Assembly: GCF_008087625.1 (NCBI RefSeq)
Contig: NZ_CP042997.1
Span: forward strand, 5,704,001-5,768,000
Origin: Aquisphaera giovannonii
GTDB lineage: Bacteria > Planctomycetota > Planctomycetia > Isosphaerales > Isosphaeraceae
DNA: 64,000 nucleotides
Reading direction: 5' to 3'
Below are positions 31,915-56,102 of this stretch, in pieces. Made by a program: the position numbers and the translations under genes. The first letter of the stretch is position 1. Every line of letters starts with the position of its first letter. A model generated the notes under the pieces. The model was given only the letters and a program-made list of their open reading frames with translations, made no database searches and was not told the DNA's origin.

Positions 31915-33438
31915 ATGCGGAGCTTCACCTGGCTGCCTCTCGGCCCGGTCGCGGACGGATTCCGCCCCTGGCTGGATGCCTATCGCCGGCAGTCGCCGGG
32001 CCGCCGGCGGGCGATCCGCTGGGGCCTCGCGGGGGCGATCCTGGCGGTCGCGGCGGTCGCCGTCGTCGCCACCACGCCCTCCCTGGGCACCCCGGGGACC
32101 TGGTACCTGGGGATGGGCCGGCACTACGCCGCGGACGACCTCAGCAAGGTGGCCCGCGCCTTCGACCGCCAGCGGATCGCGTACCAGGTCGACGATCAGC
32201 GGCGGGTGGCCGTGCCCTGGTCCCAGCGCGAGGCGGCCGAGGCGGCCGCCGCCAAGCTCGAGCTCGGCCCCCGGCTCCCCGGCGAGATCCGGGACGAGGT
32301 CCAGGCCCCGGGCCTCCTCGACTCCCCCTCCGACCGGGAGGCCCGCGAGCATCGCCGGCAGGAGCAGATCCTGGAGTCCCTCCTCGCGAGGGTGCCCGGG
32401 GTGGCGGGGGCCTTCGTCCGGGTCAACCAGCCCCGGCCCCGGCTGGGCCTCCAGCCGGCGGAGCGGCCCTGGGCCTTCGTCAGCCTGGAGACCGAGGGGG
32501 ACCGCCCGCTGCCCTTCCAGTCGGTGCAGCTCATCACCACGGTCGTCAACGGCTTCGACCGGGGCATCGCGCCGGAGTCCATCACCGTGGTGGACCGCCG
32601 CGGCCACAAGTACCTGGACGCCGCCAACCCCTCGCTGGGCGTCCTCTCCCGGAACCTCGCGGAGGAGGAGCGGCTCACCCGCGAGATCGAGGGGGAGCTC
32701 GACTGGATCAGGGGCGTCCGCGTCTCCGTCCAACTCCCCGACGCGCCGGCCGACGAGCCGAGGCCGCCGGCCCCGACCGCGACGGCCGAGGCCGCGAAGG
32801 GCCCGGATGCCGCGGCCCCCGTCATCGCCATCAACCGGCCGCTGGAGATCGCCGAGCCCCCGCCCTCCCCCCCGATCGCGCCCGCCGCCCCCGCCTCGCC
32901 GCCCGCGACGGCCGGCCCTCGACCGGGGCGCGAGCACGGCCGCGTCTGGGTCAAGGTGCCGCGGAGCTATTACTATCAGGTGGGCATGATCCCCGGCCGC
33001 AAGGAGCCCTCCCCGGACGACTTCCAGAAGCTCGTCGCCAAGACGGAGGAGCTCGTCCGCCAGGGCATCGGGGGCGTCGTCCCGCTCGCCGGGCCCTCGG
33101 CCTGGCAGGCGACCGTGAGCGTGATCCCCGACGAGCTCCCCTCGCCGGCCCCGGCCATGCCCGCGTCCGAGACGCGCGGCGTCCCCGCCACCTGGGCCGT
33201 CGCGGCGGGCGTCGCGGGGCTCCTCGCGGCCCTCGCGGCGCTCGCCGCCTGGCTCGTCCGCCTGGGCCTGCGGCCGGCCTCGCGGCGCGAGGCCTCGCCC
33301 CGGGGCGTGCGCTATCACCGGGGCTCGGCCGCCAGCCCCGGGCCGTCCGAGCTCGTCCGCGAGTTCGTCCGGCGCAACCCCGAATCGGCCGTGAGCGTCC
33401 TGGAGCGGTGGACCAGCCAGGGAGGCGAGACCCCATGA
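31915..33438 (+). CDS. fliF: FliF-like MS-ring protein
   Basis: The product is 507 residues. Membrane segments lie at about 35-56 (AIRWGLAGAILAVAAVAVVAT) and 420-447 (TWAVAAGVAGLLAALAALAAW). Between them are ring-building motifs (ADDLSKVARAFDRQRIAYQV, the YscJ/FliF domain; TREIEGELDWIRGVRVSVQL; FDRGIAPESITVVDRRGHKY) and a Pro/Ala-rich stretch. The cytosolic tail ends ELVREFVRRNPESAVSVLER, the usual FliG-binding C-terminus. FliF forms the membrane ring around the export gate. ATG 31915 has GGAGGAGG at 31902-31909. Its stop overlaps the fliG start (ATGA). It is somewhat shorter than classic FliF (about 550). Confidence 0.88.
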   Translation: MRSFTWLPLGPVADGFRPWLDAYRRQSPGRRRAIRWGLAGAILAVAAVAVVATTPSLGTPGTWYLGMGRHYAADDLSKVARAFDRQRIAYQVDDQRRVAVPWSQREAAEAAAAKLELGPRLPGEIRDEVQAPGLLDSPSDREAREHRRQEQILESLLARVPGVAGAFVRVNQPRPRLGLQPAERPWAFVSLETEGDRPLPFQSVQLITTVVNGFDRGIAPESITVVDRRGHKYLDAANPSLGVLSRNLAEEERLTREIEGELDWIRGVRVSVQLPDAPADEPRPPAPTATAEAAKGPDAAAPVIAINRPLEIAEPPPSPPIAPAAPASPPATAGPRPGREHGRVWVKVPRSYYYQVGMIPGRKEPSPDDFQKLVAKTEELVRQGIGGVVPLAGPSAWQATVSVIPDELPSPAPAMPASETRGVPATWAVAAGVAGLLAALAALAAWLVRLGLRPASRREASPRGVRYHRGSAASPGPSELVREFVRRNPESAVSVLERWTSQGGETP

Positions 33439-34016
33439 CGACCCCGACCCCGCGGGCCGCCGCCGATCCGGCCGGCGACGCCTCCGCCCCGCCGCTCGCC
33501 GTCGAGGCGGGGGCCATCCCGCCGCTCCGCAAGGCGGCGATCGTCCTCGTCAGCCTCGAGCAGTCGCTCGCCTCCCAGCTCCTCCAGCACCTCGACCGCG
33601 CCGCGGTGGAGGCGGTCACCTGGGAGATCGCCCGGCTCGAGCGGATCGACCCGGCGGAGCAGGAGGCCGTGCTCGAGGAGTTCCTCGGCCAGGGCCTCCG
33701 TCGCCTCTGCTTCGTCTTCGAGGACCTCCTGCGGATGGACGACCGCGACGTCCGCGGCGCCTACCACGAGGAGGACATCGACGCCTGGGCGCTCGCCCTC
33801 GCCGGCGCGGCCCCGCCGGTCCGCGCCAAGGTCTTCGGCTCGCTCGACCCGGCCTCGGCCGCGTCGCTCCGCGCCCACCTCGAGGGCATGGGCCCGTTCC
33901 GCCTCTCCGACGCCGAGTCCGCCCAGGTCGACCTCGCCGAGCGGTTCCGACGTCTCCACGACCGCGGCGCCGTCCGCCTGCCGGAGCCGAGCGCCCGCGA
34001 CGAGGTCCTCGTCTAG
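33435..34016 (+). CDS. fliG: Reduced FliG: N- and C-domains joined without the middle domain
   Basis: The product is 193 residues against about 330 for ordinary FliG. Residues 30-85 (LRKAAIVLVSLEQSLASQLLQHL...EQEAVLEEFL) match FliG-N, which binds FliF. Then the sequence goes directly to FVFEDLLRMDDRDVRG and the FliG-C helices (LALALAGAAPPVRAKVFGSL...LRAHLEGMGPFRLSDAESAQ). The whole middle domain, which carries the EHPQR FliM-binding site, is absent. Of the charged residues needed for torque in E. coli FliG, only the Arg in GPFRLS is kept; the Lys is Ala, the DD pair is AH and the other Arg is Ser. It overlaps fliF by 4 bp. It probably caps the FliF ring but is unlikely to drive rotation. Confidence 0.85.
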   Translation: MTTPTPRAAADPAGDASAPPLAVEAGAIPPLRKAAIVLVSLEQSLASQLLQHLDRAAVEAVTWEIARLERIDPAEQEAVLEEFLGQGLRRLCFVFEDLLRMDDRDVRGAYHEEDIDAWALALAGAAPPVRAKVFGSLDPASAASLRAHLEGMGPFRLSDAESAQVDLAERFRRLHDRGAVRLPEPSARDEVLV

Positions 34017-34059
34017 CGGGCGGGATCGCCGGCCGACCCCCGGGAGCAGGAGGCTCCTC

Positions 34060-34545
34060 ATGTTCGCGACACCTCGACGCACGATCGCCGCTGCGACCTT
34101 CTCGCTCGCCGCCCTCCTCGCGTCCGCGGCCGGCCCGACGTCCCGGGCCGAGGAAGCCGGCCCGGTCGTCGTGCCGCCCCCCTCGGGGCGCCTGCCGGTC
34201 CTCGGCCTTTCGGGCCCGTCGGCCCCGACGGATCCCGAGGCCGCGCGGCCGTCCGGCGGCGGCTGGTGGCTGGGGACCTCCGGGATCGCGCTGGCCCTCG
34301 CCGCCTGCGGCGCCGCCTCCGTCGCCGCCCGCCGATACCGCCCGCAGGGCTCCTCCGGGATGGTGAACGTCGTCGGCAAGGTGAGCCTCTCGCCCCGGCA
34401 TTCGATCGTCCTCGTCCGCGCCGGGGCCCGCGTCCTCCTCGTCGGCACGGGCCCGCAGGGCGCGCCCTCGCTCCTGGGCGAGCTCGAGGGCGAGGCCCTC
34501 CCCCTCGCCGCGGACGGCACGCCCCGGGCGGGAGGCGAGGCATGA
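34060..34545 (+). CDS. fliO: FliO-like export-gate assembly protein
   Basis: The product is 161 residues. A signal-like N-terminus (FATPRRTIAAATFSLAALLA) and a central membrane helix (about residues 67-90, WWLGTSGIALALAACGAASV) flank a Pro-rich segment. The cytosolic domain has NVVGKVSLSPRHSIVLVRAG, then VLLVGTGPQGAPSLLGELEG, the conserved FliO pattern. FliO is a chaperone for FliP ring assembly. AGGAGG at 34048-34053 supports ATG 34060. It overlaps fliP (ATGA), as in other fliOPQR operons. Confidence 0.8.
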   Translation: MFATPRRTIAAATFSLAALLASAAGPTSRAEEAGPVVVPPPSGRLPVLGLSGPSAPTDPEAARPSGGGWWLGTSGIALALAACGAASVAARRYRPQGSSGMVNVVGKVSLSPRHSIVLVRAGARVLLVGTGPQGAPSLLGELEGEALPLAADGTPRAGGEA

Positions 34546-35486
34546 CCGGACGCGGGCCGACCATCCGCCGCGCCGCCCTCCTCGTGACCCTGGCGGCGCT
34601 GGCATTCCTGGCTGCGGGCGCGAAACCGTGCCCGGCGCAGTTGCTGGCCGATTCCGACGAGCGCCCGTCGATCCCCGGCTTCGAGAGGCCGCGGTTCGAC
34701 GCCGAGGCGCTCAGGGCCGAGGCCGTGACTGTCCACGCGACGCCGCCGGGCCAGGCAGATGCCGCGGCCCCGGGCGAGGAGCCGGCCCCGGCGAAGCCCT
34801 CGCCGCTGCCCGACGCCCGGGACGCCATGCGGACCGCCTCCACGATGGCCCTCTACGGCCTCATGTGGCTGGCGCCGATGGGCGTGCTGATGCTCACGGC
34901 CTTCGTCCGCATCGAGATCGTCCTGGTCCTGCTCCGCCAGGCGATGGGCAGCCCGCAGGTCCCCAGCAACCAGGTGCTCATGGTTCTGGCGCTGCTGCTC
35001 ACGGCGCTCGTGATGCGGCCGGTCGGCGAGCGGGTCTACCAGGACGCGATCGTCCCCTTGCAGGCGGGCAAGGCCGCCCCGGCGGAGGCCTGGGAGGCGG
35101 GCTCAGCGCCCATCAAGGGCTTCATGGTAGACCAGATCGTCCGGACGAAGCACGCGGATTACCTGTGGGCCCTCTATCATCACGCCCGCCCGCCCGGCCC
35201 CGGCCGGGCCGAGCCGAAGTACGGCCACGAGTTCCCGTTCCGGATCGTCGCGCCGGCGTACCTGCTGAGCGAGCTGACCACCGCGCTGGTCATGGGCTTC
35301 TACCTGTACCTGCCGTTCCTGGTCATCGACCTGGCCGTCTCCGCGGTGCTCGCCGCGATGGGGCTCTACATGCTCCCGCCGACGCTCGTGGCCATGCCCG
35401 TGAAGATGATCGTCTTCGTCCTCGCCGACGGCTGGCTGCTCGTCTCGACGATGCTCCTGTCGAGCTTCGCCGGCCCGGGCGGATAG
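34542..35486 (+). CDS. fliP: FliP export-gate protein
   Basis: The product is 314 residues. After a signal peptide (residues 8-32) and a Pro/Ala/Glu-rich insert to about residue 95 come the family blocks: FVRIEIVLVLLRQAMGSPQV, PSNQVLMVLALLLTALVM, HADYLWALYHHARP, YLLSELTTALVMGFYLYLPF, VIDLAVSAVLAAMGLYMLPP and MPVKMIVFVLADGW. Five FliP subunits with FliQ and FliR make the substrate channel. All conserved parts are present, so the gate itself looks functional. The long periplasmic insert makes it larger than E. coli FliP (245). Confidence 0.93.
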   Translation: MTGRGPTIRRAALLVTLAALAFLAAGAKPCPAQLLADSDERPSIPGFERPRFDAEALRAEAVTVHATPPGQADAAAPGEEPAPAKPSPLPDARDAMRTASTMALYGLMWLAPMGVLMLTAFVRIEIVLVLLRQAMGSPQVPSNQVLMVLALLLTALVMRPVGERVYQDAIVPLQAGKAAPAEAWEAGSAPIKGFMVDQIVRTKHADYLWALYHHARPPGPGRAEPKYGHEFPFRIVAPAYLLSELTTALVMGFYLYLPFLVIDLAVSAVLAAMGLYMLPPTLVAMPVKMIVFVLADGWLLVSTMLLSSFAGPGG

Positions 35487-35501: not shown

Positions 35502-35768
35502 GTGGAACTCGATCATGTGATCGACTGGACGCGCGAGGCCCTGCGGATGAGCCTCCTGCTGGGCGGCCCCTTGCTCCTCGCCGCCCTGGCGGTCGGCCTG
35601 GTCGTGAACGTCCTCCAGACGCTCACGCAGCTGCACGAGCCGGTCGTCGGCCTGGTCCCGCGCCTGGCGGCCGTGCTGGTCGTCCTGCTGCTTATCCTGC
35701 CCTGGCTGCTCGGCCGCTGGCTGGGCTTCACGGCGGACCTCATCGGCCGCATCCCGGACCTGCTGTAG
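35502..35768 (+). CDS. fliQ: FliQ export-gate protein
   Basis: The product is 88 residues, the normal FliQ size, with two membrane helices (LRMSLLLGGPLLLAALAVGL and LAAVLVVLLLILPWLLGRWL) joined by the conserved LQTLTQLHEPVVGLVPRL loop. GTG start at 35502 with GAGGGGG upstream, 15 bp after fliP. It surrounds the FliP/FliR core. The next gene, fliR, is separated by a 178-bp inverted-repeat element, which is unusual inside this operon type. Confidence 0.92.
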   Translation: MELDHVIDWTREALRMSLLLGGPLLLAALAVGLVVNVLQTLTQLHEPVVGLVPRLAAVLVVLLLILPWLLGRWLGFTADLIGRIPDLL

Positions 35769-35778
35769 TTGGGACTCA

Positions 35779-35956
35779 CCACAGAGGCACAGAGGACACA
35801 GAGAAGACCGGAAGAGAAGAGAGCTTCTTTTGTAGGGTGCGTCTTGACGCATCGCGACCGCCCCGGCCGACCGGACGAGAGAAGTGCGAAGGGGTAGACC
35901 GCTCCACAAAGTCCTCCTCTCGTCCGGTCTTCTCTGTGTTCTCTGTGCCTCTGTGG
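35779..35956. repeat. Long inverted-repeat element inside the fli operon
   Basis: Arms at 35779-35811 and 35924-35956 are 33 bp each with one mismatch (CCACAGAGGCACAGAGGACA...). The centre has a TAGGGTGCGTCTTGACGCA block. Half-copies of the same element lie between fliR and flhB. The RNA would fold into a stable hairpin within the operon mRNA. Confidence 0.88.
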
Positions 35957-35987
35957 TTCGTACGATCGAAGATGCGAGGAGGATTCG

Positions 35988-36752
35988 CTGGACGCCTTCC
36001 CGCCGGACGCAGCCTGGATTGCCCTGCACGGGCCCGCCTGGATCCTGATCCTGGCGAGGGTCGCCGGCCTCTGCGTCACGGCCCCGCTGACGGCGGTCCC
36101 CGGCGTGGACGTGCGGCTGAAGCTCCTCCTCGCGGCGATGCTCGGCGCGGTGCTGATCCCGGTCCTGGAGCCGACGATCGGCGTGCCGCCGGCCGGGCCG
36201 GCGCTCGCCTGGGCGGCGGTCATGGAGCTGGCGGTCGGGGCCCTGCTGGGCCTCTCCGCGGGGCTGATCGTGGCCGGGGCCCGGCAGGCCGGGGACCTCG
36301 TCGCGGCGCAGGCGGGGCTCTCCGCGGCGACGCTCTTCAACCCGGAGTCGGGCGAGGAGGTCACCGCCCTGGGGCACCTGTACGGCCTCGTTGCGCTGGG
36401 CGTCTTCCTGGCGATGCAGGGGCCGCTCGTCCTGGTCGCCGCGCTCGCGGAGAGCTACCGCGTCGTCCCCGCCGGGGGCTTCCTCCTGGACGCGTCGACC
36501 GCGTCTCAGGTCTTCGCCCAGGTGGGCGGGGCCCTCGCGCTGTCCCTCCGCGCCGCCGCCCCCGTGGCGCTCGCCCTGGCCCTCGCCGGGCTCGCCATGG
36601 GCTGGATCGGCCGCCTCGCCCCCGCGATCCCCGTCCTCGCGATGTCCCTCCCGCTGCGTTCCCTGCTGGGCATCGCCCTGGTCATCCTGGTCCTCGGGGT
36701 GCTCGTCGCCACATTCTCGCAGGCGTGGGCCGCATGGCCGTGGGGAGGATAG
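35988..36752 (+). CDS. fliR: FliR export-gate protein with a probable CTG start
   Basis: The product is 254 residues, the usual FliR length. The next ATG-, GTG- or TTG-type in-frame start is at 36105 and would delete the conserved N-terminus (WIALHGPAWILILARVAGLC, TAPLTAVPGVDVRLK). The frame is open upstream and has GAGGAGG at 35976-35982, placed 5 bp before CTG 35988, giving (M)DAFPPDAAW. Later blocks are AVMELAVGALLGLSAGLIVA, GDLVAAQAGLSAATLFNPES and LMLP-like SLPLRSLLGIALVIL. FliR completes the FliPQR channel. No ATG/GTG/TTG fits, so the rare start codon is inferred and may reduce expression. Confidence 0.82.
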   Translation: MDAFPPDAAWIALHGPAWILILARVAGLCVTAPLTAVPGVDVRLKLLLAAMLGAVLIPVLEPTIGVPPAGPALAWAAVMELAVGALLGLSAGLIVAGARQAGDLVAAQAGLSAATLFNPESGEEVTALGHLYGLVALGVFLAMQGPLVLVAALAESYRVVPAGGFLLDASTASQVFAQVGGALALSLRAAAPVALALALAGLAMGWIGRLAPAIPVLAMSLPLRSLLGIALVILVLGVLVATFSQAWAAWPWGG

Positions 36753-36860
36753 GATGTTCATGATTGACATTAAACAATATTTGGCAATTCTGTTTTCTCT
36801 CTTTCTTTCTCCGGTCATCCTCTCCGGAACTCTCCCGTCCGGAAGGCCGGGGCGGTCGCG

Positions 36861-37027
36861 GTGCGTCAAGACGCACCCTACAAAACAACCCCTCTCCTCT
36901 TCCGGTCTTCTCTGTGTCCTCCGTGCCTCTGTGGTTAGGTGCGTCCGCGCTGCGCTTGACGCACCCTACAGAAGAACCTCCCCCTCTTCTCGGCCTTGTC
37001 TTCTCTGTGTCCTCCGTGCCTCTGTGG
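36861..37027. repeat. Half-copies of the CACAGAGG-type element between fliR and flhB
   Basis: Two direct copies of the arm, CTTCTCTGTGTCCTCCGTGC followed by CTCTGTGG, lie at about 36901-36934 and 36994-37027. They are accompanied by palindromic GTGCGTC/GACGCAC blocks (36861-36876 and about 36939-36964). The sequence matches one arm of the 35779-35956 element. The region also includes an A/T-rich patch (36760-36810) and no gene. Confidence 0.8.
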
Positions 37028-37049
37028 TTAGTCCATTAGGGGTTGCGTG

Positions 37050-38105
37050 ATGTCCGACGAGGATCGCACCCAGCCCGCATCGAAGCGTCGCCTCCAGCTC
37101 GCCCGCGAGCAGGGCCAGGTCGCGCACAGCCCGGAGCTGACGGCCGCGGTCGGGTGGCTCGTCGCCCTGGTCCTGCTGGGCTCCTGGGGCGGGGACCTGA
37201 TCCGCGGCCTGGCGATGCTGACGCGGGCCCCGCTGGAGGCCGTGCCGGTCGCGATCGACGCCGGCCGATTCGTGGCCGACCTCCGCGCCGCGGCCCTGGC
37301 GATCGCGGCGCCCCTCGCGGTCCTCGTGCTGGGCTTCGCGGCGGGCGCCGTCGCGGCCCACCAGGCGCAGGTGCGGGGCCTCTGGGCCCCCTCGCTCCTC
37401 GCCCCGGACGCCTCGCGGCTCTGGTCGGTCGGCCGCGGCGGCGGGCTCGGGGCGGGGCTCGAGCGGATCGCCTGGGCGGCGATCAAGGCGGTCCTCCTCG
37501 TGGTCGTCTCGGCCTGGGCGATCCGGGCGGAGTGGGCCGAGCTGCAACGCCTCGGCCTGCTGGCGCCGGCGGAGCTGGCGTCGGCATCCGGCCGCGTCGT
37601 GGTCTGGCCGCTCGGGGTGCTCGGCGCGGTCATGGTCGCGGTCGGCCTGGCGGACCTGGGCCTCCGCCTCGCCCGGTTCGAGGCGATGCTCCGGACCACG
37701 CCCGACGAGCACCGCGAGGACCAGAAGGCGATGGAGGGCGACCTCTCGCTTCGGGCCAGGCGCCGGCGGCTCGCCCGGGCCTGGCGCGGCGACGCCCCGG
37801 AGCTGCTGGCCGGCGCCACGCTCGTCGTCACCGGCGCCGGCGGCCTGACCGTCGTCATCGGCGGCGGCCCGCCCCCGCGTCGCGTGAACGTCCGCTCCGC
37901 CGCCAAGGGCCCGACCGGCTTCCAGCTCCGCCATTCCAATCGCACCGTCTGGATCCCCGAGATCGAGGCCCCCGCCCTCGCCCTCCGCCTCGGCCCCTAC
38001 GCCGCCAACGCCCCCGGCGCACCCGAGACCCTCCCCGCTGACCTCCTCGCCGCCCTCGCCGCCGCCTGGCCGGCCCCGGCTCCCGGCCCTCGCCGGCCGG
38101 CCTGA
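37050..38105 (+). CDS. flhB: FlhB-like export switch protein lacking the NPTH cleavage site
   Basis: The product is 351 residues. The start KRRLQLAREQGQVAHSPELT is the FlhB signature (SKRRLxxAREQGQVAxSxEL). Four membrane segments follow to about residue 215. The cytosolic linker EHREDQKAMEGDLSLRARRR matches the EhKEE.K..EGDP..K.R.R block. Where every export-competent FlhB has VTNPTHxA, this protein reads LVVTGAGGLTVVIGG. Without Asn-Pro the self-cleavage that switches substrate class cannot occur. The C-terminal tail is poorly conserved and Pro/Ala-rich. Start at ATG 37050 (GTG 37047 also possible) with AGGGG upstream. Confidence 0.85.
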   Translation: MSDEDRTQPASKRRLQLAREQGQVAHSPELTAAVGWLVALVLLGSWGGDLIRGLAMLTRAPLEAVPVAIDAGRFVADLRAAALAIAAPLAVLVLGFAAGAVAAHQAQVRGLWAPSLLAPDASRLWSVGRGGGLGAGLERIAWAAIKAVLLVVVSAWAIRAEWAELQRLGLLAPAELASASGRVVVWPLGVLGAVMVAVGLADLGLRLARFEAMLRTTPDEHREDQKAMEGDLSLRARRRRLARAWRGDAPELLAGATLVVTGAGGLTVVIGGGPPPRRVNVRSAAKGPTGFQLRHSNRTVWIPEIEAPALALRLGPYAANAPGAPETLPADLLAALAAAWPAPAPGPRRPA

Positions 38106-38570
38106 TCGCCCCGCGGTCCGAGCGCGGGATTGGGTTTGATCGTCGCCCGGCAATTTCTTGATATCGGGTGTATCTTCTTTCGGTATGCAGGCTTGTCGCG
38201 AGAAGCGTGGCTTTGACTCGTGCCGATTTTCTCGCGTTTTCGCCTCCGCTGGGGGGCCACCGCAGGGTGGCGGGGGCCTCCCGCCTGCCGCCCGCCACCG
38301 CGTCCTGGCGCGTCCCTGTCGCTGTCTGCCGGATTGCCAAAGATCATCCGGGCCTTCCAAGGGCGGACGGCCCTCCACTCCCCTATGATCCACGCCCGGG
38401 CTTGCGGGTTTCACGCCGATGACGACATTTCGCGCAGGTCGTCCATGGGCTCGTCCCTTATCGCGAGCGAATCGGCCTGGCCTGTCGCCGGTCCCCCTGC
38501 GTCTTCGCGGGCCATGGACGGCGGTCGTGGGGGTTGGATTTTTCCCCCGCGATCGATCCTTCTTGCTCGG
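38106..38570. other. Intergenic gap between convergent flhB and mmsA
   Basis: No gene or known repeat was recognised in 465 bp. The first 130 bp are A/T-richer than the rest. The downstream flagellar gene order (flhA, flhF) is not continued here. Confidence 0.5.
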
Positions 38571-42466: not shown

Positions 42467-42597
42467 CGAAGTTCATCCGTTCGGTGCGAGGAGCGTTGAG
42501 ACCCGATTCGCGCTGCGGGTCGGACAAATGTAGCGGACGGGGCGAGGTCGAGCAAGGGTTTCGGAGCGGAGCACGGGCGCATGGCGAAGGCCCCTCG

Positions 42598-43140
42598 TGG
42601 GAGCCGCCTCCGTGCGGCGACCGCGCCGGCCGAGGCTCACCCGGTCGCCGCACGGAGGCGGCTCCCACAAATACGCCCGCCGGCCGAGGCTCACCCGGTC
42701 GCCGCACGGAGGCGGCTCCCACAAATACGCCCGCCGGCCGGGGCTCACCCGGTCGCCGCACGGAGGCGGCTCCCACAAATACGCCCGCCGGCCGGGGCTC
42801 ACCCGGTCGCCGCACGGAGGCGGCTCCCACAAATACGCCCGCTGGCCGAGGCTCGCGCGATCGCCGCACGGAGGCGGCTCCTACAACGGCTTTCGCCGGC
42901 CGAGGCTCACCCGGTCGCCGCACGGAGGCGGCTCCCACGAGGGTTTACGCCGGCATCGGCTGATTCGGTCGCCGCACGGAGGCGGGTCCCACAAATACGC
43001 CCGCTGGCCGAGGCTCACCCGGTCGCCGCACGGAGGCGGCTCCTACAAATTCGCCCGCTGGCAGAGGCTCACGCGGTCGCCGCACGGAGGCGGCTCCCAC
43101 GAGGGTTTTCGCCGGCATCGGCTGATTCGGTCGCCGGTGG
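42598..43140. repeat. Tandem array of 54-bp units
   Basis: GGTCGCCGCACGGAGG, or a close variant, recurs with an exact 54-bp period from 42643 to 43075, and the GGTCGCCG part again at 43129 (ten positions). Units share a core TCGCCGCACGGAGGCGGCTC followed by CCACAAATACGCCCGC. The left end at 42598-42622 is an inverted copy of the core. Because 54 is divisible by three, several long open frames pass through (VGAASVRRPGEPRPAG-type peptides); these are artefacts. The core belongs to the same family as the hairpins at 243-320 and 60269-60346. The intervening 28 bp is also conserved, so this is not a CRISPR array. Confidence 0.92.
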
Positions 43141-43153
43141 AGCACGGCCCGCC

Positions 43154-45799
43154 TCAGGGGCGGGGCGTCATCGGCGGGGGAGTCGCCCCGGGGGCGGCGG
43201 CGGAGGTTGACGCCGCCTCGCAGTCGGACAGGTACCGCTGGAGGACGCCGGGGCGCAGGTAGTCGGCGCGGGGGTAGGCGGCGATACGCTGGCTCGGGAT
43301 CCGGCCCAGGTTCTCGATCGCCCGGCGGAGGACCGGGGCGGCCTCGGAGGGGCGGCCGGTCTCGCGCAGGAGCCGCGCGAGCTCGTCCTCGTCATGGATC
43401 AGCGAGAGGCGGATGTCGGCGTTCTCGGGGTCGGACCCGACCAGGTCGGCGAACAGGGCCTCCGCGTCGGCGTAGAGCGGCTCGGCCCCCGCCAGGTCGC
43501 GTCGCCGGTGGAGGACCCCCGCGAGGTCATTCATCGCGGTGGCCAGGTGGGCTTTCGTCTCGCGATCCGCCGGGTGGGCCCCGAGGCTCTCCCGGCCGAC
43601 CGCGATGGCCCTGAGGTAGTCGCCGCGGGCGGCCTCGAGGTCGCCGGAGAGCTTGTGGATGTCGCCGAGCTTGCGGTCGCTCCAGGCGAGCATGGCCGAG
43701 GCCTCGGCGCTGCCCGGCTCCTCCGAGGTCCAGCGCCCGGCAAGGTCGCGGGCCCTCCGGAACCAGGCCACCGCCTCGCCGTAATCCCGGCGGAATCCGT
43801 ACGCCCGCCCCAGCCGGATGTACGCCTCGAGCAGCCCCCTGCGGTCGCCCGGGCGCGAGGCGCCGGACGCCGCGACCTGCTCCGAGAGGTCCACGACCCG
43901 CTGGAAATGCTCCAGGGCGGGCGTGTTCCCCGGGTCGAACACGCCGAGCTCGCCGAGGCCGATGTGGGCCCGGATCAGGCAGTCCCTGGCGGCCAGGTCG
44001 CCGGGGGCGTCCTCGGCGCGCTGCTCGGCCAGGCGGACGGCGAGCTCGAACTGGCGCCCGGCCTCGGCCGACCGGCCCACCTGGCGGTAGATCTCGCCGA
44101 GCTTCTGGTGGGCGGCGGCGCGGCTCATGTCGGGCGGCGTGGCCTCGGTGCTCGTCGCCAGATCATCGAGGCCGGCGATGGCCGTGTCGAGCAGGCTCTG
44201 GCGGAGGTGCCGCGTCGCGGGCGTCTCCCCCAGCCGCTCCTGGACCTCGAAGACGAGCTTGTCCAGCGCCTGCATGGCGAGGTTGCGCTGCTCGAGCGCG
44301 AACCGGGTCTTGCGGTCGGCCTCGTCCTTCGCCTCGCGGGCCGCCCGCACGCCGGCCCGGAGCAGGGCGTTGTAGCGGAGGATGCCCGCGAAGACGACGG
44401 CGACGGCCAGGGCGAGCCCGAGGAGCGCTACGGCGAGCCCCGGGCGGCGGCGGGCCCACTTCGCCGCCTTCTCCCAGGGCGGGGAGGGGCGGGCGAGGAT
44501 CGGGCGGCCGTCGAGGAACCGCCGCAGGTCGTCGGCCATCGCGTCGGCGGAGGCATACCGCCGGGACGGGGCCTTCTCCAGGCACTTCATGCAGATCGTC
44601 TCGAGGTCGCGCGGCGTGCTCCTCTGGAGGCTGCTGGGGACGAGCGGCTCCTGGTTCGCGACCTGGTCGAGCGTGGAGAGGGGCGTGGCCCCCTTGAAGG
44701 GCGGCCGGCCGGTGAGGGCCTCGTAGAGGATCGCCCCCAGCGCGTAGACGTCCGCCGCGGGGGTGATGTCGCCCGAGGGGCCGAGGAGCTGCTCGGGGGC
44801 CATGTAGCTGGGGGTCCCCAGGATCGTCCCGGAGACCGTGGGGGCGGCCTCCTGCTCGAGCAGCTTCGCCAGGCCGAAGTCGGTGATCTTCGGGACGCGG
44901 CCCTCGGCCAGGACGATGTTGGCCGGCTTCAGGTCGCGGTGGACGATCCCGCACCCGTGCGCGTAGTGGATCGCCCGCGCGAGCTGCTCGACCAGGGCGG
45001 CCGACGCGGCGGGATCCTGCGGCGTGCCGGCGATCGCGGCCCCGAGGCTGCCGCCGGCGGCGTACTCGAGCGTGATGTAGCCGAGCCCCTCGTGCTCGCC
45101 CACCTCGTAGACCTGGATGATGTTGGGGTGCTGGAAGCGGGCCGCCGCCTCGGCCTCGGCGCGGAAGCGGCCCGCGGCCCCGGGCAGCGCGTGGTGCCCG
45201 GCCTGGATCACCTTGAGGGCCACCAGGCGGTTGAGCGCGAGCTGGCGGGCCCGGTACACGACGCCCGCCCCGCCCCGGCCGAGCTCGCCGAGGATGCGAT
45301 AGCCCGGGATCTCCGGCGCGCCCTCGAGGCCCGGGCCGTCCTCGGCGTCGCCCCCGCCGAGCGTCCTCGCGGGCGCCTCGCCGCCGGGCTCGTCCCGGGC
45401 GAGGGCCCGATGCAGCGCCAGCTGGCGGCGCAGCCGGTCGGCGAGCTCCGGGAATCGCCACGCGTACTCCTCGATGCACGGCGATTCGCCCATCGACTCG
45501 CGGAGCATGAACTCGCTGTAGACCACCTCGAACGCCGCGTTGCCGCGCCCCCGGAGCGCCGGGTGCAGGGCGAGGTAGGCCTCCGCGGGGATTCGATGGC
45601 CGGCGTGCCAGCCGCGGATCTGGTCGTTGCAGAGCCACTCGACGAGCTCCTCCTCGCTGGCGTCGACGGCCCGGGCGATGCGCTCCCGGATGTCCGGGCC
45701 GCGGCCCGAGTCGCCGGATCGGCCGTCCGCCGTCGGGGGCCCGAGGTGGGTCCGGCCGTGCCGCGCCGGGTCGTTCGGGGATGCGTCCTGTCTGATCAT
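43154..45799 (-). CDS. Membrane Ser/Thr protein kinase with TPR repeats
   Basis: The product is 881 residues from ATG 45799; an in-frame GTG at 45892 would add 31. Residues 1-160 hold a planctomycete kinase N-region (EELVEWLCNDQIRGWHAGHR...IEEYAWRFPEL). The kinase domain (about 165-430) has LGRGGAGVVY, VALKVI, IVHRDLKPANI, ITDFGLA and SYMAPEQL, all catalytic residues present. A membrane helix near 453-473 (GLAVALLGLALAVAVVFAG) is followed by an extracytoplasmic region with several TPR-like repeats up to the end. The gene directly follows an ECF-type sigma factor, the standard planctomycete sigma/kinase pairing, so it may regulate that sigma factor. Confidence 0.9.
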   Translation of the reverse strand: MIRQDASPNDPARHGRTHLGPPTADGRSGDSGRGPDIRERIARAVDASEEELVEWLCNDQIRGWHAGHRIPAEAYLALHPALRGRGNAAFEVVYSEFMLRESMGESPCIEEYAWRFPELADRLRRQLALHRALARDEPGGEAPARTLGGGDAEDGPGLEGAPEIPGYRILGELGRGGAGVVYRARQLALNRLVALKVIQAGHHALPGAAGRFRAEAEAAARFQHPNIIQVYEVGEHEGLGYITLEYAAGGSLGAAIAGTPQDPAASAALVEQLARAIHYAHGCGIVHRDLKPANIVLAEGRVPKITDFGLAKLLEQEAAPTVSGTILGTPSYMAPEQLLGPSGDITPAADVYALGAILYEALTGRPPFKGATPLSTLDQVANQEPLVPSSLQRSTPRDLETICMKCLEKAPSRRYASADAMADDLRRFLDGRPILARPSPPWEKAAKWARRRPGLAVALLGLALAVAVVFAGILRYNALLRAGVRAAREAKDEADRKTRFALEQRNLAMQALDKLVFEVQERLGETPATRHLRQSLLDTAIAGLDDLATSTEATPPDMSRAAAHQKLGEIYRQVGRSAEAGRQFELAVRLAEQRAEDAPGDLAARDCLIRAHIGLGELGVFDPGNTPALEHFQRVVDLSEQVAASGASRPGDRRGLLEAYIRLGRAYGFRRDYGEAVAWFRRARDLAGRWTSEEPGSAEASAMLAWSDRKLGDIHKLSGDLEAARGDYLRAIAVGRESLGAHPADRETKAHLATAMNDLAGVLHRRRDLAGAEPLYADAEALFADLVGSDPENADIRLSLIHDEDELARLLRETGRPSEAAPVLRRAIENLGRIPSQRIAAYPRADYLRPGVLQRYLSDCEAASTSAAAPGATPPPMTPRP

Positions 45800-52185: not shown

Positions 52186-52540
52186 GGCCGGCCGTCCCGG
52201 GGGCGGAATCGACGGCGACGGCCCGGGGGCATCTCCCCGGGCCGGCGTCGCGCGCCGGCCGGCGGGGTGGCGTGCCCTCCGGGCGTGGATCCGCAGCCGA
52301 TTGCATGCCATTCGCTCTGGACACGTCCCGACGGGGGCGGTATGGTCCCCGCACACTTCCAGAGCGATGCCGATTCACGGCGACAGGCGGGACAGAGATC
52401 GGGACGGCCTCGGCGCGAGCCGGGGCCGGGGCGACGCTGCCGGTCGGGGCGGGGGCGGAGGGGATCCGTGCGGCCCGCCTCCGGCGCCCGGGCCCCGCGC
52501 CGGTTCGGCATCGTCGGGTCAGGAATCGCGGAGGGGACGG
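52186..52540. other. Leader region before flhA, with a hairpin
   Basis: CGGCCCGGGG (52219-52228) and CCCCGGGCCG (52235-52244) form a perfect hairpin that may end the beta-helix transcript; it has no T-tract. I see no clear promoter for flhA. A GCCGATTC near 52369 is only loosely similar to a sigma-28 -10 box. Confidence 0.45.
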
Positions 52541-54886
52541 ATGCCAGGGACGACATCGAGCCCGCTCGCTTCCGGGTGGCGGCACGCCTCCGGGTTCGTG
52601 ATGCCGATCGTGATCGTCGGCGCCGTCCTCGTGTTCGTGGTGCCGATCCCGCCGGCTCTGCTGGACGTCCTGCTCTCGGCCAACCTGACGCTCGCCGTCG
52701 TGGTCCTGCTGACCACGCTGGCGATCCGGACGCCGCAGGAGTTCAGCGCCTTCCCGACCATCCTGCTGACGACCACGCTGACCCGGCTGGTGCTCAACGT
52801 GGCGACCACCCGGCTCGTCCTGACCGGCGGCGGCACCGAGCTCGGCGTGAACGCGGCCGGCGGCGTGATCCGGTCGTTCGGCGAGTTCGTCGCCGGCGAC
52901 CAGGTGCTCGTCGGCGTGATCCTGTTCTCGATCCTGGTCGTCATCCAGTTCGTCGTGATCACCCGGGGGGCCACGCGGATCAGCGAGGTCGCCGCGCGGT
53001 TCATGCTCGACGGTCTCCCCGGCCGGCAGATGGCCATCGACGCCGACCTGCACGCCGGGCTGATCGACCAGCACCAGGCCCACGAGCGCCGGGACGAGGT
53101 CTACCGCCAGGCGGACTTCTTCGGGGCGATGGACGGGGCGGGCAAGTTCGTCCGCGGCGACGCCATCGCGGGCGTCGCCATCCTGATGGTGAACATCTGC
53201 GGCGGGCTCTTCCTGGGCGTCTTCCAGTACGGGATGAGCGTCTCGGACGCGGTGAACGTCTTCACGAAGCTGACGATCGGCGACGGCCTGGTGAGCCAGG
53301 TGCCGGCGTTCCTGATCTCGCTGGCGGCCGGCCTGATCGTGACGCGGTCGTCGTCCTCGACGGACCTGGGCCGCGACGTGACCGGGCAGCTCTTCGGGGA
53401 CCGCGGCGTGCTGGGCACGGCGGCCGTCTTCCTGGGCCTGCTGGCCTTCACGCCGCTGCCCAAGGCCCCGCTGCTGACGCTCGCCGGGGGCCTCGGCGCC
53501 GGGGCGATCCTGATGGGCCGCCGCGGCGCGTCGGGCGAGGGCGAGGCGGCGGCCGCCGACCACCCGGCCGGGCGTCGCGAGGGCCCCGGCCAGGCCCACG
53601 GCCCGGACCGCCGGGTGGACGCCGGCCACGCCCCGATCGCCGCCCCGAGGCACGCGGCCGAGCCGCCGGCCGCGCCGGCTTCGGGCCCGGGCTCCGAGGG
53701 GATGGAGGACCTGCTGCACGTCGACCCGCTGGAGCTGGAGATCGGCTACCGGCTGATCGGACTGGCCGACCCGACGCGGGGCGGCGACCTTTTGGAGCGG
53801 CTGCGGACGGTCCGCCAGCGGATGGCCCGCGAGCTCGGCCTGATCATCCCGCAGGTCCGGATCCACGACGAGATCGGGCTGACGCCGCACGAGTACCGGG
53901 TGAAGATCCGCGGGGCGATCGCGGGGCAGGGGACGGCGCACGCCGGCCGGCTGCTGGCGGTGCCCCCGGCGGGGCTGGCCGGCCGGCCCGACGGCCGCGA
54001 CGGCATCGACCCGATCACAGGCCAGGCCGCGGTCTGGATCCACGCCGACGGGCGTGAGGTCGCGGAGCTCTCCGGCTGCCGGGTCATGGAGGCCTCGTCG
54101 GTCGTCGCCGGGCACTTCGGCGAGATCATCCGCAACCACGCCGACGAGTTGCTGACCCGCGAGCAGGTGGACCGCCTGCTCGACCGCGTCCGCGCCACGG
54201 CGCCGTCGCTGGTGGCCGAGGTCGTGCCCAGCCTGCTCCGCCCCGGCGAGCTCCAGCGGGTGCTCCAGAACCTGCTCCGCGAGCGCGTGAGCATCCGCGA
54301 CCTGGAGACGATCCTGGAGACCCTGGCCGTGCACGCCGGCCGGACCCGCGACGTGGAGGTGCTCACCGAGCACGCCCGCCAGGGGCTGGCCCGCCAGATC
54401 ACCGAGAGCCACCGCGGCGCCGACGGGCGGCTCCGCGTGGTCACGCTGTCGAAGCCCCTGGACGCCCGGCTCTGCGCGGCCGGCGGCGAGGCCGACACCC
54501 GGCCCTCCGAGGCCCTCGGCGACGAGATGACGCGGAGCGTCGTCCGCGCCGTGGCCGTGGCCGTGGCCACGCTGGTGGACGCCGGGCTGCCGCCGCTGAT
54601 CCTCACCTCCGCCGCGGCCCGCCCCGTGCTCAAGGACCTGACCCGCGCCGACCTGCCGCGGCTCGTCGTCCTGAGCCAGCGGGAGATCCCGCGGGACACG
54701 CCCCTGGAGGTCCTGGGCAGCGTGATCGAGGAGGACGACGCCGACGACGCCGAGGCCGGGGTCGAGCCGGGGCCGGGGCCCCTGGATGCGGACTGGGAGG
54801 GCGCGCCGGAGGCCGGCCGCCGGACGCCGCCGCGGCGGGAGCCGGACATCGTGACCTCGATCACCACCACCGAGGCCCTCGGCTGA
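52541..54886 (+). CDS. flhA: FlhA export-gate protein
   Basis: The product is 781 residues, longer than E. coli FlhA (692). Eight membrane helices occupy residues 20-330, including LLDVLLSANLTLAVVVLLTT and the FHIPEP-type signature FGAMDGAGKFVRGDAIAG. Residues 330-385 are a Pro/Ala/Gly-rich linker. The cytosolic part (LLHVDPLELEIGYRLIGLAD, RRQMARELGLIIPQVRIHDE, ...LLREQVDRLLDRV, LLRERVSIRDLETILETLAV) is complete. FlhA forms the nonameric docking ring for substrates. GGAGG precedes ATG 52541. The position 14.4 kb from flhB and downstream of secreted proteins is unusual but the gene looks intact. Confidence 0.93.
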   Translation: MPGTTSSPLASGWRHASGFVMPIVIVGAVLVFVVPIPPALLDVLLSANLTLAVVVLLTTLAIRTPQEFSAFPTILLTTTLTRLVLNVATTRLVLTGGGTELGVNAAGGVIRSFGEFVAGDQVLVGVILFSILVVIQFVVITRGATRISEVAARFMLDGLPGRQMAIDADLHAGLIDQHQAHERRDEVYRQADFFGAMDGAGKFVRGDAIAGVAILMVNICGGLFLGVFQYGMSVSDAVNVFTKLTIGDGLVSQVPAFLISLAAGLIVTRSSSSTDLGRDVTGQLFGDRGVLGTAAVFLGLLAFTPLPKAPLLTLAGGLGAGAILMGRRGASGEGEAAAADHPAGRREGPGQAHGPDRRVDAGHAPIAAPRHAAEPPAAPASGPGSEGMEDLLHVDPLELEIGYRLIGLADPTRGGDLLERLRTVRQRMARELGLIIPQVRIHDEIGLTPHEYRVKIRGAIAGQGTAHAGRLLAVPPAGLAGRPDGRDGIDPITGQAAVWIHADGREVAELSGCRVMEASSVVAGHFGEIIRNHADELLTREQVDRLLDRVRATAPSLVAEVVPSLLRPGELQRVLQNLLRERVSIRDLETILETLAVHAGRTRDVEVLTEHARQGLARQITESHRGADGRLRVVTLSKPLDARLCAAGGEADTRPSEALGDEMTRSVVRAVAVAVATLVDAGLPPLILTSAAARPVLKDLTRADLPRLVVLSQREIPRDTPLEVLGSVIEEDDADDAEAGVEPGPGPLDADWEGAPEAGRRTPPRREPDIVTSITTTEALG

Positions 54887-54947: not shown

Positions 54948-56102
54948 ATGACGATGGCCGCGAAAACCTACAGGGCCGGGACGATGCGGGAGGCGCTGGC
55001 GAGGGTCCGCAAGGACCTCGGCGGCGACGCGATCATCCTCGCCTCTCGCTCGGTCCGGCGCCGGCGGCTGTTCGGCCTGGGCGGCCGCGAGCTGATCGAG
55101 GTCCGCGCGTCGGCCACCATGCCGCAGGCGGCCGCGCTCGTGGAGGCGGCCGGGGCGCCGCCCCCGCCGGCCTCCGGGGCCGCGGCGGGGCCGGGGGGCC
55201 TCTCCGCCGACGCGCAGGGGCGGCTCGGCGACGAGCTGAGCCGGCTGCACGAGCGCGTGGACGCCCTGAGCCGGATGGGGCGGGTGGACCACCTCGTGCC
55301 CGACCTGCCGGCGCCGGTCGTCGCCTCGTATGCGAGGCTGGTCGAGGCCGAGGTCCCCGAGCCCCTGGCGCGCCGGATCGCGGCGGCCGTCGCGGACTCG
55401 CTGGAGCCGCACCAGCTCCACGACCCGGCGGAGGTCGACGAGGCGCTCCTCGAGGCCGTGGCGCGGTCCATCCCGGTCGCCCCGCCGATCCGCGCCGTCA
55501 TGGGCACGAGGCGGGTGGTGGCGCTCGTCGGGCCGACGGGCGTGGGGAAGACGACGACGGTGGCGAAGCTCGCGGCCAACTTCAAGCTGGTGCACGGCCT
55601 GTCCGTCGGGCTCGTCACGCTGGACACCTACCGGATCGCGGCCGTGGAGCAGCTCCGGACCTACGCCGAGATCATCGACCTGCCGCTGGCCGTGGCGAAC
55701 GACCCCGGGGAGATGGCCCGGGCGCTCGACGAGCTGGGCGCGGTGGACATCGCCTTCATCGACACGGCCGGGCGCAGCCCGCGGGACGAGGTGAAGATCC
55801 GCGAACTGGGCGAGTTCATGGACCGGGCCCGGCCCGACGAGGTCCACCTGGTCCTCAGCGCCGGGGCCGGCGAGAAGACGCTCCGCGCCGCGGCCGAGCG
55901 GTTCGCCCGGGTGCGGGCGGATCGCCTGATCCTCACCAAGCTCGACGAGGCGGAGGGCCTGGGCGATGCGCTCGGCCTGCTCGGCCAGTCGAGCCTGCCG
56001 GTGAGCTACCTGACCACCGGCCAGGCGGTCCCCGACGACATCGAGCCGGCCGACCGCCGGCGGCTCGCGGGCCTGATCCTCGGGATGGAGGCCATCGGAT
56101 GA
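54948..56102 (+). CDS. flhF: FlhF SRP-type GTPase
   Basis: The product is 384 residues. An N-terminal B domain (residues 1-120, TYRAGTMREALARVRKDLGG and DAIILASRSVRRRRLFG) is followed by the NG domain. GTPase motifs are G1 GPTGVGKTTT (about residues 195-204), DTYRIAAVEQLRTYAEIIDL, DTAGRSPRDEVKIREL and TKLDEAEGLG. FlhF places the flagellar base and export gate at the membrane and needs the N-terminal helix of FlhG to trigger GTP hydrolysis. ATG 54948 lies 61 bp after the flhA stop. A 59-residue peptide with the FlhG activator motif follows at 56208. Confidence 0.92.
   Translation: MTMAAKTYRAGTMREALARVRKDLGGDAIILASRSVRRRRLFGLGGRELIEVRASATMPQAAALVEAAGAPPPPASGAAAGPGGLSADAQGRLGDELSRLHERVDALSRMGRVDHLVPDLPAPVVASYARLVEAEVPEPLARRIAAAVADSLEPHQLHDPAEVDEALLEAVARSIPVAPPIRAVMGTRRVVALVGPTGVGKTTTVAKLAANFKLVHGLSVGLVTLDTYRIAAVEQLRTYAEIIDLPLAVANDPGEMARALDELGAVDIAFIDTAGRSPRDEVKIRELGEFMDRARPDEVHLVLSAGAGEKTLRAAAERFARVRADRLILTKLDEAEGLGDALGLLGQSSLPVSYLTTGQAVPDDIEPADRRRLAGLILGMEAIG

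Follow-up and report, generated by a model that had tools for sequence, protein, structure and literature searches.

A reduced flagellar export gate with an FlhB lacking the autocleavage motif in Aquisphaera giovannonii and other Isosphaeraceae

Introduction

The role of FlhB cleavage is best described in Salmonella. Uncleavable Salmonella FlhB stays in the early mode, in which early substrates are exported and polyhooks are formed (PMC13344023, PMC10965912), indicating that without cleavage export continues and only switching is blocked. A first-pass annotation of the locus described here, which took self-cleavage to be universal among export-competent FlhB proteins, thus went too far. In Salmonella without rod, hook, and Flk, FlgM, a late substrate, is exported to the periplasm when FlhB lacks its cleaved domain (PMC13344023).

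Several residues of the gate have assigned roles. FlhB A286-P287 is the pair in the early-substrate pocket (PMC13344023), and FlhA F459 and T490 contribute to the dimple where chaperones with filament-type substrates bind (PMC8166844). FlhA D208 is important, though not essential, for proton-driven export (PMC7911332). The DQAxxLR helix of FlhG activates FlhF (PMC12826062).

Reduced systems have been described as well. The non-flagellar 'Myxo' T3SS of Myxococcales, once taken for a relic, is conserved in sequence and order (PMC3459982). Poor flagellar gene content was noted in 2017 in four Isosphaeraceae genomes, with no mention of the gate (PMC5352709), and a survey of flagellar loss asked what incomplete gene sets do (PMC12199754). 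In the open-access literature, we find no published report of a planctomycete FlhB without NPTH.

Results

Gene content of the locus

The window is a 64,000-nucleotide stretch of A. giovannonii DNA. The export gate FliPQR-FlhA-FlhB and the MS ring protein FliF are all encoded in it, as identified by Pfam profiles (Table 1). The genes from fliF to fliR lie upstream of flhB, and the flhA-flhF-flhG-fliA block lies about 14 kb downstream, on the same strand. FliG, which injectisomes lack, is present. Stretches of the repeated type CTCTGTGTCCTCCGTGCCTCTGTGGTTAG, apparently dispersed in the operon, precede fliR (35770-35990) and flhB (36765-37040), and dense short repeats at 42470-43200 yield open frames of repetitive sequence in several reading frames (GRGSPGRRTEAAPT...).

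Table 1 Features of the gate locus in the window
Feature	Coordinates	Strand	Evidence
fliF (MS ring), 507 aa; start is the first Met of the open frame	31915..33438	+	Pfam YscJ_FliF 8.9e-14
short fliG of 193 aa with the N-terminal and the C-terminal domain	33435..34016	+	FliG_C 8.6e-22, FliG_N 2.3e-14
junction; site of fliI, fliJ, fliK, flgD, flgE, motA, motB, fliL, and fliN in ordinary operons	34017..34059	.	comparison with L150+L151
fliO	34060..34545	+	Pfam FliO 3.1e-8
fliP (gate)	34542..35486	+	Pfam FliP 5.4e-59
fliQ (gate)	35502..35768	+	Pfam Bac_export_3 1.5e-21
fliR (gate; start approximate)	35994..36752	+	Pfam Bac_export_1 7.2e-45
flhB without autocleavage motif, 351 aa	37050..38105	+	Pfam Bac_export_2 and alignment
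GAGG (G262-G265) at the NPTH/NPTE position of flhB	37833..37844	+	alignment
flhA (start approximate)	52538..54886	+	Pfam FHIPEP 3.8e-229
flhF GTPase	54948..56102	+	TIGR03499 2.5e-60, above cut-off
flhG cut to the FlhF-activating helix (MPDQADNLRRLV), 59 aa	56208..56387	+	motif scan, place between flhF and fliA
fliA/whiG-type sigma factor, 258 aa	56733..57509	+	TIGR02479 4.3e-79, above cut-off

The order fliF-fliG ... fliOPQR-flhB, flhA-flhF-flhG-fliA is shared with the native flagellum of other Planctomycetia, of which an ordinary operon reads fliG-fliI-fliJ-fliK-flgD-flgE-motAB-fliL-fliN-fliOPQR-flhB-flhA-flhF-flhG-fliA. In a flagellated relative (G053; loci L150+L151), fliI, fliJ, a gene for an MgtE_N-type protein, fliK, flgD, flgE, motA, motB, fliL, and fliN lie between fliG and fliO. 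This block is gone from the window, where 44 bp separate fliG from fliO. The flagellum of the relative differs from the window in having an NPTE FlhB, FliI, FliJ, FliK, FlgD, FlgE, MotAB, FliL, and FliN.

The FliA of the window shares 78% identity with that of the flagellated relative (72-80% across families) but just 31-38% with the FliA proteins of the second flagellar lineage, indicating that the window gate belongs to the native lineage. The gate is not a second system paralogous to the flagellum, as the flagellated relative has the same flhA-flhF-fliA block. In genomes with two systems, the second flagellar set represents the other lineage, the one seen in family f3 (L158). The 'Myxo' T3SS is likewise reduced but belongs to the injectisome lineage, whereas FliG, FlhF, and FliA accompany the window gate, which is of native planctomycete flagellar descent.

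The losses extend beyond the operon. The rod/hook domain Flg_bbr_C, found in all four flagellated controls, is absent from the Aquisphaera genome and from 44 of the 45 family genomes, including all 26 of high quality. Flagellin is presumably absent too, given the missing rod and hook. The sole rod/hook match in the family (G005:C92:3905-4036; L117) is in a genome in which FlhA and FlhB are absent; this genome is 85% complete and 5% contaminated, and the match may be contamination. No FliI export ATPase scores above the cut-off in the 45 genomes, and SctN, the injectisome ATPase, is not found in the same search; the best FliI matches reach less than half of the cut-off, scores that ATP synthase subunits also give. 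A 445-residue protein with a FliN-type C-terminal domain is encoded away from the gate (G000:C1 near 8713052; L112:8047-9381, minus strand). Upstream of it lies a conserved partner of no assigned family (L112:9296-10261).

The cleavage site of FlhB

The window FlhB aligns over its full length with flagellar FlhB (TIGR00328; Salmonella, PDB 36hu and 6s3l) in gate domain, linker, and C-domain fold. It matches Bac_export_2 at 1.8e-35 over residues 4-266, which include the N-terminal four-helix export-gate domain, and the match ends at profile position 261 of 335, the cleavage site. In the alignment with full-length planctomycete FlhBs, the NPTH/NPTE autocleavage motif is absent, and the site reads T261-G262-A263-G264-G265. 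Unlike Salmonella FlhB, the protein has neither NPTH nor the A-P pocket, and it scores 71.9 bits against the TIGR00328 equivalog, of which the cut-off is 349 bits. It is 83% identical to the FlhB of Aquisphaera insulae, the nearest named genome.

The first-pass annotation had named two circumstances that could undo the absence of the motif, a frameshift around 37.82-37.87 kb and a second flhB with NPTH, and neither holds. The other two frames over 37640-38200 contain no NPT, and in a search at E<=10 the window FlhB is the sole match in the Aquisphaera genome (10.5 Mb in 3 contigs; completeness 99.94%).

The C-domain is recognizable nonetheless. It matches the C-domains of full-length FlhBs (hhalign 97.4%, E 1.2e-11), and HMMER matches it to structures of FlhB, YscU, and EscU. 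As judged from these profile comparisons, the FlhB/YscU-type C-terminal cytoplasmic fold is kept; the predicted structure of FlhB (mean pLDDT 44) is too poor for use in judging the fold.

Loss of the motif across the family

Among the 27 Isosphaeraceae FlhBs that retain the C-domain, none has Asn at the cleavage site; Gly occupies the Asn position in 25, and Gly also occupies the His/Glu position of the motif in 25, indicating that the loss of the motif is not due to chance. The Asn is present in every one of the 30 full-length FlhBs from Planctomycetia outside the family (NPTE in 23, NPTH in 6, and NPVH in 1). The His of the motif is thus Glu in most full-length planctomycete FlhBs (L058-L087). 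Going by the alignment, loss of NPT is a trait of the Isosphaeraceae, and the absence of NPTH reported by the first-pass annotation is borne out. TGAGG, proposed there as a substitute motif, is indeed what stands at the site, but the conserved pattern is G-x-x-G with variable middle residues.

The window FlhB is therefore probably not cleaved. Cleavage at another site or by other chemistry would be compatible with the retained C-domain fold, but it is extremely unlikely: no N-P or other conserved labile bond is present (N in 0/27, P in 5/27 at the next position), and sister genera of the family (g20, g13, and g8) have lost the C-domain of FlhB wholly.

Where present, the C-domain is not random sequence. 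Almost no variation is seen in the family at W340 (W112 in the alignment) and at several glycines and prolines, and dN/dS of the C-domain is 0.04-0.48, near the value of the membrane part in several pairs. Together with the homology, these values indicate that the C-domain is maintained under purifying selection.

FlhB and FlhA are each present as one copy in all 26 high-quality genomes (45 family genomes searched). In one genome (G031; L030), the flhB frame is broken in the C-domain and continues in another frame, and in another (G013; L031) flhB is shortened; either case may be a sequencing error or a real loss.

The retention bears on whether the locus is a relic in slow decay without present function. 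The losses of ATPase, motor, switch, and docking sites, the frameshifted and shortened flhB genes of G031 and G013, and the poor flagellar gene content noted earlier in four Isosphaeraceae (PMC5352709) would all accord with a relic. However, FlhA and FlhB persist in 26/26 high-quality genomes, the C-domain shows the dN/dS given above, and FlhA scores are comparable to those of flagellated relatives (see below). In addition, no copy among the 26 is inactivated, save possibly those of G031 and G013. A relic is therefore quite improbable.

Parallel losses in other planctomycetes

We survey 248 Planctomycetia genomes for the state of FlhB. In 28 genomes outside the Isosphaeraceae, the sole FlhB is switchless, that is, short, or full length without NPT (G143). 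In 12 others, a switchless FlhB occurs beside a full-length FlhB. Outside the family, 19 switchless FlhBs are read in sequence, all without Asn-Pro, and the rest are judged by profile coverage. The loss is accordingly not peculiar to the FlhB type of the window: other planctomycetes have deleted the entire C-domain, apparently independently.

The state of FlhB goes with the axial structure. Rod/hook proteins are missing from 27 of the 28 genomes outside the family whose sole FlhB is switchless. The exception (G239) has four rod/hook matches and only a switchless FlhB found in a fragmented assembly of 480 contigs. Eleven of the 12 genomes with both kinds of FlhB have 5-6 rod/hook proteins, and G250 has one. 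In our sample, rod/hook loss thus goes with loss of the motif or domain and rod/hook presence with a full-length FlhB, with the one exception in the fragmented assembly.

A tree of FlhB only is poorly resolved and is replaced by a tree of the gate built from FliP, FliQ, FliR, and the membrane part of FlhB, rooted on the second flagellar lineage. In this tree, the Isosphaeraceae form one group. In two clades separate from this group, one of f2 (99/95) and one of f5, f7, f11, f14, f20, and f12 (98/97), switchless and flagellated gates are mixed. A single origin of switchless FlhB is not supported. Since regain of a deleted NPT domain is unlikely, the mixed clades suggest that switchless FlhB arose at least three times independently, with the caveat that the tree is weak at several inner branches and contains one very long sequence, of f15.

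Eroded and retained sites

In all seven FlhAs from flagellated systems, the residues corresponding to F459 and T490 are F and T. Other residues take their place in all 16 Isosphaeraceae FlhAs and in 14 of 16 from other switchless systems; in the window FlhA these are T and G. The A286-P287 pair of FlhB is AP in 30/30 full-length FlhBs and never in Isosphaeraceae. With both the A-P pocket of FlhB and the chaperone-binding residues of FlhA gone, neither known substrate class should dock.

Other sites are retained. D208 is present in 38 of 39 FlhAs, including that of the window, which scores 760 bits against its profile with the cytoplasmic ring whole (708-793 bits in the family, like flagellated relatives). 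FlhG is reduced to the DQAxxLRxLV helix in the window and six relatives (L041, L043, L047, L049, L050, and L054), and a full FlhG is retained in L039/L040. Retention of D208 and of the FlhF-activating helix, together with loss of the docking residues, indicates that selection keeps chosen parts.

These sites bear on an alternative in which the gate exports nothing and serves as a scaffold or polar mark. FlhF would bring FliF and FliG to the pole, for example the budding pole, and the gate would be the core for assembly of the ring. The erosion of the docking sites of FlhA and FlhB, and the retention of FlhF, the FlhG helix that activates it, FliF, and FliG along with the gate, are in line with such a role. 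However, D208 and the complete cytoplasmic ring of FlhA exceed the needs of a scaffold, and FlhF is not found in the switchless lineages L125, L128, L130, L134, and L137. We consider a scaffold rather unlikely, though less so than a relic.

Discussion

The locus is probably a native flagellar gate that was left after loss of the axial structure and is kept by selection in one unswitched mode, although the erosion of both docking sites could mean that nothing is transported, and both FliG and FlhG are truncated. The ATPase, motor, and axial components would have gone first, leaving the native set of FliF, FliG, FliOPQR, FlhB, FlhA, FlhF, and FliA in place. With no hook to complete and no filament to start, switching would be useless and the self-cleaving switch superfluous. 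The motif of FlhB would then have been lost, and in other genera the whole domain. The gate would still assemble; locked in a single mode, it would work without an ATPase and open to the periplasm. Less certainly, it may transport some cargo into the periplasm in this single mode, driven by the proton gradient; a protein that regulates the sigma factor FliA, encoded nearby, would be one candidate cargo.

A broader proposal is more tentative, and we hold it as possible but doubtful: that a working, ATPase-free type III gate without rod, hook, needle, or filament, with one mode and periplasmic cargo, evolved repeatedly among planctomycetes as they abandoned swimming, and that in some of them it later came to work alongside a separate normal flagellum. 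The single-purpose secretion gate of the first-pass annotation is partly supported. The motif loss is family-wide and goes with flagellum loss, and a gate of one mode is the best reading; active secretion is overstated, as the docking sites of both known substrate classes are eroded.

The two changes seen in planctomycetes, loss of the site and deletion of the C-domain, are those of the Salmonella mutants flhB N269A/P270A and FlhB-deltaCCD (PMC13344023, PMC10965912). Whereas those mutants were made in the laboratory, the planctomycete change arose in nature and is fixed in a family in which rod, hook, ATPase, and docking sites have been lost as well. The planctomycetes thus provide a natural experiment on the long-argued purpose of FlhB cleavage. 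The co-occurrence of FlhB and rod/hook states, together with a pore under selection, fits a role of cleavage in substrate switching alone and none in export. A further question is what purpose a type III gate serves in the absence of an axial structure. For genome annotation, the case is a warning that FlhA, FlhB, and FliPQR genes are no proof of motility.

Two further forms of FlhB are seen in the survey. In five genomes of f3 and f4 (G051, G141, G046, G186, and G047), a separate protein of about 90-150 residues that consists of the FlhB C-domain only is encoded besides a full FlhB. Low-scoring FlhBs (E 1e-37 to 1e-54) that may be switchless occur in families f32, f65, f66, f69, and f73, which belong to other classes of the phylum.
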